Source: Aromatoleum petrolei
GTDB lineage: Bacteria; Pseudomonadota; Gammaproteobacteria; Burkholderiales; Rhodocyclaceae
Assembly (NCBI RefSeq): GCF_017894385.1
Contig: NZ_CP059560.1
Coordinates: 5,278,501-5,342,500 of the forward strand
Direction: 5' to 3'
DNA length: 64,000 nucleotides
Shown: positions 19,469 to 25,279 of the stretch, in pieces
Position numbering within the stretch: the stretch's first letter is position 1
Layout: every line of letters begins with the position of its first letter
The notes under the pieces: generated by a model
The model's database searches: none
What the model was told of the DNA's origin: nothing
The model's input: the letters and a program-made list of their open reading frames with translations, nothing else
Program-made: the position numbers and the translations under genes

Positions 19469-20353
19469 TCATCCGCGCGCCCCTGCCACCGCCGCCGGCG
19501 GGTGACGCGCAAGCCAGATCACCGCGGCGAGGATCACTGCACCGCCGATCACCTGATTGAACTCGATCGCCTCGCCAAGGAAGATTGCCGCAAGCACGAA
19601 GGTTACGACCGGCTCCAGTGTTGACAGGCTCGCGGCATCCGCCGCGCCCAGTTTCTGCAGCCCGATGAAGAAGCTGACCATCGCAATGACTGTGGACACG
19701 ATTGCGATCAGCAGCACCGCCACCCAGCCTGTCACCCCCTGCGGCCAGGTGGCGCCGGCAACCCCGACCAGCCCGCCATACACCGCTGCTGCCGCCATCA
19801 TGACCACGGTCGCACTCGCCAGTGGCGCCTCCCGGGCCATGACACGATTGCCGACAAGAATGTAGATGGAATAGATCAGGGCTGCGGCCACCCCAAGGAT
19901 GATCCCCAGCGGCCGTCCGCTCAATTCCCCTCCGATCGTCAGCGCCGTACCCGCCAGGGCAGTCAGCACTGCGACCACGCGCCCTCGCGTGAGACGTTGC
20001 CGCAGGAATACCGCGCCCAGGAGCGTCACGAGAATCGGGTAAAGGTATAGCAAGAGGGCAACCAGGCCTGCCGAGGCGAAATTCAAGGCCTCAAAAAAGG
20101 CGTACGACTGCGCCACATAGCCGATTCCCCCCATCGCGACGAGAACCGCCGCATTACCTGCGGAAGGCCAGCGGCGCCGGGTCGCCAGCATCACCGCTGA
20201 CATGAGCACGGCCGAAATGAGGAAGCGCAGGAACAACACCGTCACGACGTCAGCACCGCTGCCGCTCGCAAATCGGGCAAAGATCGCCATCGCACCGAAG
20301 GCCGCTGCGGACACGGCCACGTATGCCGCGCCGACCAAGCGCTCGTTCTGCAT
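19469..20353 (-). CDS. EamA/DMT superfamily transporter
   Basis: A 294-residue protein with ten hydrophobic segments arranged as two EamA repeats. The second repeat includes GLQKLGAADAASLSTLEPVV followed by FLGEAIEFNQVIGGAVI, a standard DMT signature. The substrate is unknown; relatives export amino acids or nucleobases. The start ATG 20353 gives MQNERLVGAAYVAVSAAAFG. It is convergent with the gamma carbonic anhydrase gene. Confidence 0.85.
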   Translation of the reverse strand: MQNERLVGAAYVAVSAAAFGAMAIFARFASGSGADVVTVLFLRFLISAVLMSAVMLATRRRWPSAGNAAVLVAMGGIGYVAQSYAFFEALNFASAGLVALLLYLYPILVTLLGAVFLRQRLTRGRVVAVLTALAGTALTIGGELSGRPLGIILGVAAALIYSIYILVGNRVMAREAPLASATVVMMAAAAVYGGLVGVAGATWPQGVTGWVAVLLIAIVSTVIAMVSFFIGLQKLGAADAASLSTLEPVVTFVLAAIFLGEAIEFNQVIGGAVILAAVIWLARHPPAAVAGARG

Positions 20354-23386: not shown

Positions 23387-24766
23387 TCACAGAGAGAGAT
23401 TGAACACCGTCTCGGTGCCCTCGTCCCAGCCGTCCCACAGATAGTCGTCGGCCTTGCCGTCGGCGATCAGGCGCAGGGAGTAATTGACCTGCTCCTTGTA
23501 GAACTCGCAGAAGGCGCCGATCTTCTCCATCCCGCCGTTCATCTCATGCGCCTCGGCCGGGCACGGCGAGCCGCAGAAATGGCGGATCGCGCAGTCGCCA
23601 CAGGGACTGAACTTGTCCACGTCACGCCCCGTCACCGTCCTGAAGGCGTCGGACGCCAGCGCCGCCTCCACGCCGCCATCGACCAGCAGCGAACCGCCGT
23701 TGAAGCGCGGCAGGCCGATGAACTCGCTGCAGGGGTAGAGGCTGCCGTCGGCCGCCAGGGCGAAGAATGCGCGACCACCGCCGCAGGGCGAAATGTCGCA
23801 CATCAGCCGTCGCGCCGTCGGCGCCAGGATGCCGATCAGGATATTGGCGAAATTGGCCACCACCAGCTTGCGCCCCGTCTCGCGATACAACTCATGGCTG
23901 CGGTCGAGCGCGGCAAAGAACGCCTTGGCCATCTCCCCGTCCGCCGGCTTCACCCCCCGCGCCCCGGGCAGCGTGCAGCGCAAGGTGTTGAGCATGCAGG
24001 TCGGCACCTCGTTCGCATGGAACAGCTCGACCATCGACGTCAGATAAGGCAGGTTCTCGGTGGTGCAGGTCGTGATGACGCTCCACGAGCCATACCCCTT
24101 CAACTTCGCCATCGCGGCCAGCACCTTCTCGTGCACGCTCTTGCCGCCCCAGGTGCGGCGGGTGGCATCGGTAATGTCTGCCACCGGGCCGTCCAGGGAA
24201 AGGCCGATGCTCACATTGCGACGGGTCAGGAATTCGACCGCGGCATCGTCGAGCAGGGTGCCGTTGGTCTGTACCCCGAAGGCGAAATCGTCGGCGAATT
24301 CGCTGATGGCAGCGAACACGGCAGCCTGGTTCATCAGCGGCTCGGCGCCGTGGAAGATCGCGCGCGGCTTCCTGCCCTCGGGCATGACCGAGCGGAAATA
24401 CTCCCGCAGCCGCCCCAGGGATGCGACCAGGGTTTCGACCGGCATGTGCTGCCCCGACTTGCGCTGGCTGCCCGGGAGATAGCAATAAGTGCAATTGAGA
24501 TTGCAGCGCTCGGTCGGATTGAGATAGACGCCGGAAGGCTTCAATTCGAAGCGCAGCGCATGCAGTTCCCGCCCGAAGGCTTCCGCCTGTCCACGATAGG
24601 CCTCCAGCAACGGACCATCGGCCAGCGACTCGGCCAGGCGGCTCTTGTCCACCAAAGCCCAGAAGGCGGTCTGGGGGTCGGTCACCGCCGCATAGACTGC
24701 GTGGCCGATGTCCACCGGGATCAAGGCGGGGCCCGCCAGGGCCCGGCTCGGGAGGGCGGCCGTCAC
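23387..24766 (-). CDS. cbpB: Peptide-modifying radical SAM/SPASM enzyme (CbpB-like RiPP maturase)
   Basis: A 459-residue radical SAM protein starting at GTG 24766, whose GTGA overlaps the stop of the precursor gene. The SAM cluster motif is Cys88-x3-Cys92-x2-Cys95 (TERCNLNCTYCYLPG). The C-terminal SPASM domain has the full Cys set: CGGGRAFFALAADGSLYPC, then CGDCAIRHFCGSPC and a last Cys in GAFCEFY. These ligate two auxiliary 4Fe-4S clusters, as in anSME and RiPP maturases. No cobalamin-binding domain is visible. An N-terminal region of about 80 residues may recognise the leader. From memory it fits the family named CbpB; that assignment should be checked by HMM. Confidence 0.85.
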   Translation of the reverse strand: MTAALPSRALAGPALIPVDIGHAVYAAVTDPQTAFWALVDKSRLAESLADGPLLEAYRGQAEAFGRELHALRFELKPSGVYLNPTERCNLNCTYCYLPGSQRKSGQHMPVETLVASLGRLREYFRSVMPEGRKPRAIFHGAEPLMNQAAVFAAISEFADDFAFGVQTNGTLLDDAAVEFLTRRNVSIGLSLDGPVADITDATRRTWGGKSVHEKVLAAMAKLKGYGSWSVITTCTTENLPYLTSMVELFHANEVPTCMLNTLRCTLPGARGVKPADGEMAKAFFAALDRSHELYRETGRKLVVANFANILIGILAPTARRLMCDISPCGGGRAFFALAADGSLYPCSEFIGLPRFNGGSLLVDGGVEAALASDAFRTVTGRDVDKFSPCGDCAIRHFCGSPCPAEAHEMNGGMEKIGAFCEFYKEQVNYSLRLIADGKADDYLWDGWDEGTETVFNLSL

Positions 24767-24912
24767 TTGGCGGCCTTCCTGTCCATCAGCACATAGTGCG
24801 ACAGGCCGATGCCCTCCGGGTTGCAGCTCTTGCGGACGGCGATGGTCGGAGCGGCGTTCTGCGCCGGGGCTGCCTGTTGGCTTTGGGCTTGCGTTTGAAC
24901 ATTTTGGGTCAT
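24763..24912 (-). CDS. cbpA: RiPP precursor peptide (CbpA-like), substrate of the adjacent radical SAM enzyme
   Basis: A 49-residue peptide with a GAGGAATGG ribosome site before ATG 24912. The N-terminal half is a Gln/Ala-rich leader (MTQNVQTQAQSQQAAPAQ). The C-terminal half is conserved-looking, PTIAVRKSCNPEGIGLSHY and then VLMDRKAAK. It contains the only Cys (residue 30) and Asn/Tyr residues that could be modified. It is the first gene after the riboswitch and is coupled to cbpB by a 4-base overlap. The product and its bioactivity are unknown. From memory it corresponds to the family called modified peptide precursor CbpA. Confidence 0.75.
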   Translation of the reverse strand: MTQNVQTQAQSQQAAPAQNAAPTIAVRKSCNPEGIGLSHYVLMDRKAAK

Positions 24913-24931
24913 GATCCATTCCTCGAGATAG

Positions 24932-24989
24932 AAAAACAAAAAGGGCTCCGGCTCACGGCACGCTTTGAGCATGCAGTCAGCCGGAGCCC
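24932..24989 (-). terminator. Intrinsic terminator between the cobalamin riboswitch and cbpA
   Basis: On the minus strand an 11-bp perfect stem, GGGCTCCGGCT (24989-24979) against AGCCGGAGCCC (24953-24943), encloses a 25-base loop and is followed at once by TTTTTGTTTTT (24942-24932). It lies 17 bases after the aptamer P1 stem and 19 bases before the cbpA ATG. This is the layout of a transcription-terminating expression platform. Confidence 0.88.
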
Positions 24990-25006
24990 TTGCCTTGGCT
25001 CCAGAT

Positions 25007-25168
25007 CGGTTCGACACGTCTTCTGGCTACCGGATCAGCCGGATCGCTGCGCCTTCCCGCCGGGGTTGTCCCCGTCAGTGGCTGGTTTCTTCAACCTGGC
25101 AGCGGCCGTCCCCGGATACAGCGGCGGGCCCGCCACGGATTCGCACCGTGTTCCGTTTCGTCGAACCG
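25007..25168 (-). promoter_or_regulatory. Cobalamin riboswitch aptamer
   Basis: Read on the minus strand, the classic B12-aptamer elements occur in order. The P1 5' strand CGGTTCGAC is at 25168-25160. GGTGCGAATCC (25147-25137) and CCCGCCGCTGTATCCGGGGA follow. GCCACTG is at 25082-25076, then GGGAAGGCG, and the B12 box AGCCAGAAGAC is at 25028-25018. The P1 3' strand GTCGAACCG at 25015-25007 closes a 9-bp helix. Known members bind adenosyl- or other cobalamins and usually repress the downstream gene. Here the first gene is a RiPP precursor, not a B12 gene. Confidence 0.93.
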
Positions 25169-25279
25169 AAAGGAAGCCGAATTTTTGCCTAGTCGGGCTG
25201 CACCGGTCAACAGTCTTCGCGGATGCGATCGAAAGCCCCGATACGCACTGGCCGCGACGGCGGGCCTATTCCATCGAGA

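Follow-up and report, generated by a model that had tools for sequence, protein, structure and literature searches.

In cobalamin riboswitches a kissing loop between L5 and L13 holds the hairpin P13 when a corrinoid is bound, and the use made of P13 differs from one switch to another (PMC10653944). In the repressing metE switch of P. megaterium P13 allows the terminator to form; in the activating cobT switch of A. halodurans P13, which shares a strand with the terminator, is the antiterminator. The latter was described in 2023 as the first natural corrinoid-activated riboswitch, and a search of the open-licence literature found no second. The subject here is a riboswitch of this family on the minus strand of a 64,000-nucleotide stretch of the Aromatoleum petrolei genome (contig NZ_CP059560.1, positions 5,278,501 to 5,342,500; hereafter the window, numbered from its first nucleotide). 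It precedes cbpA and cbpB, the genes of a precursor peptide and of a radical SAM/SPASM peptide-modifying enzyme. The reading favoured here, at a probability of roughly 0.5, is that cbpAB is a modified-peptide cassette of cobalamin synthesis, switched on by corrinoid and acting late in corrinoid assembly or handling. What would be new is a widespread predicted corrinoid-activated switch and a peptide with a proposed place in the last stages of B12 synthesis.

The cbpA leader and its expression platform

The aptamer (24996..25185, minus strand) matches RF00174 with 77.4 bits (E 2.4e-17; gathering threshold 31.5) and is the sole gathering-level Rfam match within the 64-kb window. Its P1 helix is readable as 9 bp between the 5' strand CGGTTCGAC (25160..25168) and the 3' strand GTCGAACCG (25007-25015). 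The site and the cobalamin class given to it in a preliminary description of the locus are confirmed, but the end assigned there, 25168, falls where the inner P1 strand begins, and the RF00174 match reaches 25185. Just 3' of P1 lies P13, CTGGAGCC-AAGGCAAG-GGCTCCGG (24981..25004), with AAGGCAAG as L13; it is the predicted antiterminator when corrinoid is bound. The loop L5, GCCCG (25125..25129), is the proposed kissing partner of L13. An intrinsic terminator hairpin follows (24941..24991), formed by pairing of AAGGGCTCCGGCT with AGCCGGAGCCCTT (24991-24979 with 24953-24941), and 3' of its stem a T tract, TTTTTGTTTTT (24932..24942). The terminator and its T tract had been noticed before, although the stem has 13 contiguous pairs rather than 11. 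The segment from 25010 to 24913 (98 nt) folds at -50.8 kcal/mol, with a z-score of -5.66 that none of 200 shuffles matched.

The 3' arm of P13 (24988-24981) lies inside the 5' arm of the terminator (24991-24979), and since this strand is common to both, the two hairpins exclude each other. The 6-bp core of P13 has a predicted energy of -10.4 kcal/mol and the terminator one of -36 kcal/mol, so that termination is expected as the ligand-free default. Thus, without corrinoid, the terminator would form and transcription would end before cbpA. With corrinoid bound to the leader, the L5-L13 kissing loop would stabilise P13, which would take the strand of the terminator 5' arm; the terminator would then fail and cbpAB be transcribed.

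This architecture is not peculiar to the window. Among 84,980 species genomes scanned, 261 cbpAB loci were confirmed, the best 80 of which were kept; adding the window and a copy on a Methylovirgula plasmid gives the 82 loci examined here. A script recognised the shared-arm architecture in 64 of 70 cbpA leaders and in none of 20 other cobalamin riboswitches from the same loci and the window genome; when the segment 5' of the terminator was shuffled, 158 of 1320 leaders still passed the rule. The arms of both P13 and the terminator could be read in 63 of the 70 leaders, in 29 distinct three-arm combinations, and compensating changes occur in both helices (GGAGCC/GGCTCC, GAAACC/GGTTTC, GGAACC/GGTTCC). 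The Watson-Crick fraction is 0.856 for P13 and 0.839 for the terminator (shuffled means 0.745 and 0.766), values reached by 0 of 2000 shuffles in either case. Judged by these alignments, P13 and the terminator both covary across the cbpA leaders. The P13 loop contains GG[C/T/A]A in all 63 leaders read; L5 could be located in 59 leaders, and 47 of these have GCCCG there.

The likeness to the A. halodurans cobT switch (PMC10653944) extends to details. In both, the P13 3' arm is common with the terminator 5' arm. L5 is GCCCG in A. halodurans and in the window alike; L13 contains UGGC in A. halodurans and in several cbpA leaders, and in the window AAGGCAAG contains GGC. Unlike the cobT switch, the cbpA switches precede the genes of a peptide and a radical SAM enzyme, and do so across several phyla. 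From the shared, covarying arms, activation by corrinoid is predicted, and this sign is considered probable. The suggestion in the preliminary description that the peptide acts when B12 is scarce would, on this expression platform, probably have the sign reversed.

A number of observations weigh against this prediction. Only 4 of the 20 control riboswitches have a terminator at all, which makes them an imperfect control. Six of the 70 leaders do not fit: no terminator was found in L046, L058, L072 and L103, and in L071 and L115 P13 is compatible with the terminator. The search for arms preset a shared arm of GG[CT]T[CT]C with at least 5 of 6 pairs, so that some of the high pairing follows from the search itself, and the shuffled sets retain the relatedness of the leaders. 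The proposed kissing loop of the window has just 3 bp (GGC/GCC), and among the 59 leaders with a located L5 its first letter finds a partner in L13 in 49. Some cobT switches repress, as in S. ovata (PMC9600662), so that the class of the controlled gene cannot by itself fix the regulatory sign. In four loci (L069, L070, L073 and L081) cbpAB lies 3-6 kb into a corrin operon whose leading cobalamin riboswitch lacks the activating architecture; opposite control therefore exists in some lineages. Lastly, bases 5' of P1 could pair with the P13 5' arm at all six positions in the window and in L036, the relative nearest to it, and this pairing would allow a repressing mechanism in the window.

Repression of the SAM-I kind, with P1 sequestering the P13 5' arm, was considered for the leaders at large and rejected: at least 5 of 6 pairs are found in 22 of 64 leaders, compared with 18.4 expected when arms are swapped and 15.9 when letters are shuffled, so this pairing is not conserved. 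At three loci (L090:3279-3681, L091:9216-9640 and L092:7871-8299) two cobalamin riboswitches stand back to back and divergent between a cobC/cobU/cobT operon and cbpA, and the shared-arm platform is found on the cbpA side only.

Shared-arm switches in Bacillota

The same architecture was sought among 70 RF00174 sites (L119-L188), which are among the best-scoring sites in the phylum of a Bacillota metagenome-assembled genome (MAG), as sampled by 61 genomes, two having been passed over. The shared-arm rule was derived from the published cobT case and was applied without regard to the genes; it recovers cobT. A terminator is present at 63 of the 70 sites and the shared-arm platform at 16, of which 15 are distinct, L120 being a duplicate of L119 that was dropped; L123, L154 and L179, called activating by the script and doubtful by their loops, were kept. 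The identity of the genes that follow was taken from tblastn matches with seven reference open reading frames of the author's choosing.

The genes after the 15 sites are CobT (4), AIRS-like (4), ThiC-family (2), CbiM (1) and others (4). A CobT, AIRS-like or ThiC-family gene is thus next at 10 of 15 shared-arm sites as against 2 of 47 other terminator-bearing sites (p 1.5e-6, by a Fisher test which here, as throughout, ignores phylogeny). The contrast is 8/15 against 2/47 for CobT and AIRS-like genes alone (p 6.7e-5), and 4/15 against 0/47 for CobT by itself (p 0.0024). Of ten sampled non-activating sites eight gave a Pfam match: three to CbiM, two to a periplasmic binding protein, and one each to CbiD, NicO and DUF4430. 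The alpha-ribazole kinase CblS is AIRS-like; for the AIRS-like proteins here curated models say AIRS only, and the L142 protein falls just under the AIRS cut-off. The two ThiC-family proteins are above ThiC cut-offs but, with 617 and 561 bits, do not reach the 700 required by the BzaB model; that curated models call them ThiC and not BzaB counts against the favoured reading.

Within the Bacillota sample, then, the shared-arm architecture is tied to what is probably the lower-ligand end of the pathway. It is this association, with the same architecture ahead of cbpA, that would place CbpA late in corrinoid assembly or handling. Such a late-stage role is put forward tentatively, at rather less than even odds.

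Cobalamin synthesis and the supply of cobalt

The preliminary description took B12 control of a peptide to be detached from B12 metabolism, a view that the distribution of the cassette does not sustain. A covariance model, R1, built from 15 leaders that match it by construction, places a riboswitch directly 5' of cbpA in 69 of the 80 genome loci and in the window; by Rfam alone the figure is 34 of 46 loci scanned. Of the 11 loci lacking a switch of their own, four are those within riboswitch-headed operons mentioned above, two end before the leader (L067 and L096) and five have no riboswitch by the scan (L045, L098, L099, L105 and L107). The plasmid copy (L035), in which cbpAB has pqqADE and a Crp/Fnr regulator as neighbours, likewise has no cobalamin riboswitch.

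Neighbour clustering, with one representative of each cluster named by NCBIfam models, finds B12 genes alongside cbpAB in 25 of the 82 loci, of at least three kinds in 20. Representatives of CobB, CobO, CbiH/CobJ, CbiL, CbiET, CbiD, CobT, CobD, CobU, BluB, CbiB and CobQ scored above a cut-off; CbiX-like, CbiC, CobC, CbiG and CbiM-like ones fell below theirs. The order of the window was sampled with 300 genomes; cbpB is above cut-off in four and CbiL in 25, and all four are among the 25 (p 3.8e-5); inside the family of the window the same comparison gives 4/4 against 0/5. Furthermore, CbiL is above cut-off in 42 of 52 distinct cbpB genomes (43 of 53 if one genome is counted twice), those tested being from 50 of the 80 loci plus three. 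The cassette thus tracks de novo cobalamin synthesis. The window genome has four RF00174 sites in all. The other three precede a corrin operon (CbiC, TP-methylase, CbtA), bluB, and a TonB receptor/FecCD/CobO/CobB-like group; they share the aptamer family of the cbpA switch, although none has the shared-arm platform.

The 42 CbpB-positive genomes with CbiL (the ten tested without it being excluded, and the duplicates G308 = G111 and G319 = G278 counted once) were compared with 21 CbpB-negative genomes, all with CbiL and all from one order. Full CobN is above cut-off in 2 of the 42 and in 11 of the 21 (p 3e-5), or in 3 of 42 (p 1e-4) if a copy split over two contigs in G349 is counted. By these matches the cassette goes with the early-cobalt route, though the two groups differ in phylogeny. 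BluB is missing above cut-off from 16 of the 42, many of them incomplete MAGs, and 14 of these 16 have at most one ThiC-family match; it is present in 20 of the 21 CbpB-negative genomes. In L076 and L080 the cbpA switch stands within a B12 operon in the order cobB-switch-cbpA-cbpB-bluB, with bluB directly 3' of cbpB.

The association with the early-cobalt route bears on a different reading, in which the switch represses, like most known cobalamin riboswitches, and CbpA is a cobalt carrier made at low B12 that feeds early cobalt insertion by the CbiX route. The CobN contrast speaks for it, albeit confounded by phylogeny, and CbiX-like and CbiM-like genes, both below curated cut-offs, lie near cbpAB in L069, L070 and L081. 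The invariant Cys and His of the CbpA core would suit a metal carrier, and the pairing open to the P13 5' arm in the window would suit repression. However, the sharing of an arm by P13 and the terminator predicts activation, CbiM or CbtA is already available to 37 of the 42 CbpB-positive genomes, and CbiX-family matches are near universal (61 of 63 genomes over both groups) and do not separate the groups. CbiX was accordingly dropped as a discriminator, and the notion of a cobaltophore in place of cobalt import was discarded on the CbiM and CbtA count. The repressing cobalt carrier is judged unlikely, with perhaps one chance in five.

Several features beside B12 or cbpAB loci may be recorded. 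A protein of about 190-220 aa adjoins cobO in six of seven loci (cluster including L044:19231-19824), its L044 representative having no Pfam or NCBIfam match. Group II introns lie beside B12 loci at L073:5107-5245 and at L080:18106-18181 and 19800-19922, and a fluoride riboswitch lies 5' of cbpA on the opposite strand at L064:3306-3367.

The peptide, the enzyme and their possible role

In the window cbpA (24763..24912, minus strand) encodes a 49-residue precursor with the conserved core TIAVRKSCNPEGIGLSHYVLMDRK, and cbpB (23387..24766, minus strand), which starts with GTG, a 459-residue enzyme, the GTGA overlapping the cbpA stop. The precursor scores 56.7 bits with TIGR04164 (curated cut-off 35) and the enzyme, scanned from its second codon, 734 bits with TIGR04163 (cut-off 375). 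The order and overlap of the two genes, and their link to a CbpA/CbpB pair, were correctly described: the pair is a known NCBIfam family, from which the window proteins show no difference. The model names give neither product nor role, although 'Cobo' in them suggests that the curators knew of the cobalamin link. The open-licence literature yielded no mention of the names, nor anything on this pair under radical SAM/SPASM joined with cobalamin riboswitch, cobalamin biosynthesis, RiPP (ribosomally synthesised and post-translationally modified peptide) or precursor peptide; the B12 link is likely to be found in subscription papers or NCBIfam text.

Radical_SAM alone is above cut-off in a Pfam scan of CbpB, SPASM reaching 15.7 bits (cut-off 21.5). 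The same scan found no B12-binding domain, as the earlier description had held. Eight further Cys are invariant across 64 aligned CbpB and are read as the SPASM cysteines. CbpB is remote from the described maturases: it scores 111.9 bits with the PapB model (NF047865, cut-off 340) and 87.5 with that of the SCIFF maturase CteB (TIGR03974, cut-off 425), and is likewise far below the cut-off for anSME (349). The substrate differs as well, the window CbpA having a single Cys and not a Cys-rich repeat. A VIA-align comparison was run, in which residues outside 70-426 were barely tested, and no chain in the PDB resembles CbpA in sequence.

The precursor is most constant in its C-terminal core. cbpA stands 5' of cbpB in 81 of the 82 loci, L046 having a core without a start codon, and the core R-K-x-C-x3-G-x-G-L-S-H-Y is read in 81 of 82. 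Among 83 aligned cores, 62 of them distinct, R, C, the two G, L, S and H are never replaced and Y is present in 82; several of these 'invariant' residues were preset by the search motif, and the weight lies in the loci having passed it. The core is near-invariant across phyla, those labelled among the loci being Pseudomonadota, Planctomycetota, Verrucomicrobiota, Nitrospirota, Nitrospinota and Chloroflexota, with one MAG each under the labels Bacillota, Actinomycetes and Myxococcales. Of the named genomes in the scan, that of Aromatoleum evansii comes nearest, its CbpB being 97% identical. The stretch N-terminal to the core is unconserved and of 6-34 residues, a length that depends on the start codons chosen. 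Two Sedimenticola precursors (L089:2234-2464 and L093:9702-9944) carry two tandem cores, an argument for the core as the unit of the product. CbpB would modify this core, the likeliest site being the invariant Cys, for which the chances are put at about even.

Three assemblies hold two cbpAB copies each: Azoarcus sp. Aa7 (L083/L084), MAG SKS4.bin46 (L064/L065) and MAG BE2011_69_25 (L073/L075). Carriage by viruses was looked into and set aside, as 33 pattern matches in viral contigs gave no confirmed cassette; one copy is on a plasmid.

Among the 20 recurrent neighbour clusters scanned, with one representative each, no exporter or peptidase was named beside cbpAB, bar a generic ABC ATPase; this ProV-like cluster, at scattered positions in 12 loci, is the sole transporter ATPase among them. 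From this it is argued that the product acts in the cytoplasm. On the favoured reading, modified CbpA would probably be intracellular and take part in late corrinoid assembly at the lower-ligand or nucleotide-loop stage, handle an incomplete corrinoid, or serve as a corrinoid carrier. A more specific proposal, itself doubtful, is that modified CbpA, switched on by an incomplete corrinoid, is the carrier of the corrinoid while the nucleotide loop is assembled, or else provides the lower ligand or takes its place. It would fit the switch class held in common with cobT, AIRS-like and ThiC-family genes, the bluB genes directly downstream in L076 and L080, and the CbpB genomes that lack BluB and for the most part have few ThiC-family matches.

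Activation by corrinoid would also suit a function of the B12-replete cell, with CbpA serving in corrinoid storage or sequestration, or as a brake on cobalt insertion or uptake. The riboswitch evidence is the same for this as for a late role in assembly, and the core could offer cobalt a His or Cys ligand. However, activating architecture in the Bacillota sample accompanies probable lower-ligand genes, and no corrinoid-binding family matched CbpA or CbpB in the NCBIfam and Pfam scans; a B12-replete function is accordingly given a low probability. Peptide-derived cofactors exist, PQQ and mycofactocin among them, yet that CbpA yields a cofactor replacing B12, or an antimicrobial or signal peptide, is highly improbable, since CbiL is present in most cbpB genomes, activation by corrinoid would be the wrong sign for a substitute, and the core is near-invariant across phyla, unlike those of antimicrobials.

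To our knowledge no genetically encoded peptide has previously been implicated in corrin assembly. If the more specific and doubtful proposal, of a modified CbpA working at the lower-ligand end, is correct, CbpA would be the first, and it would stand under a widespread class of corrinoid-activated riboswitches. A regulatory code may be proposed in which an arm shared by P13 and the terminator signifies activation by corrinoid and a late corrinoid step. The condition under which the peptide should be sought would be reversed, from B12 starvation to the addition of corrinoid, and a family without a known product becomes a candidate component of B12 assembly.

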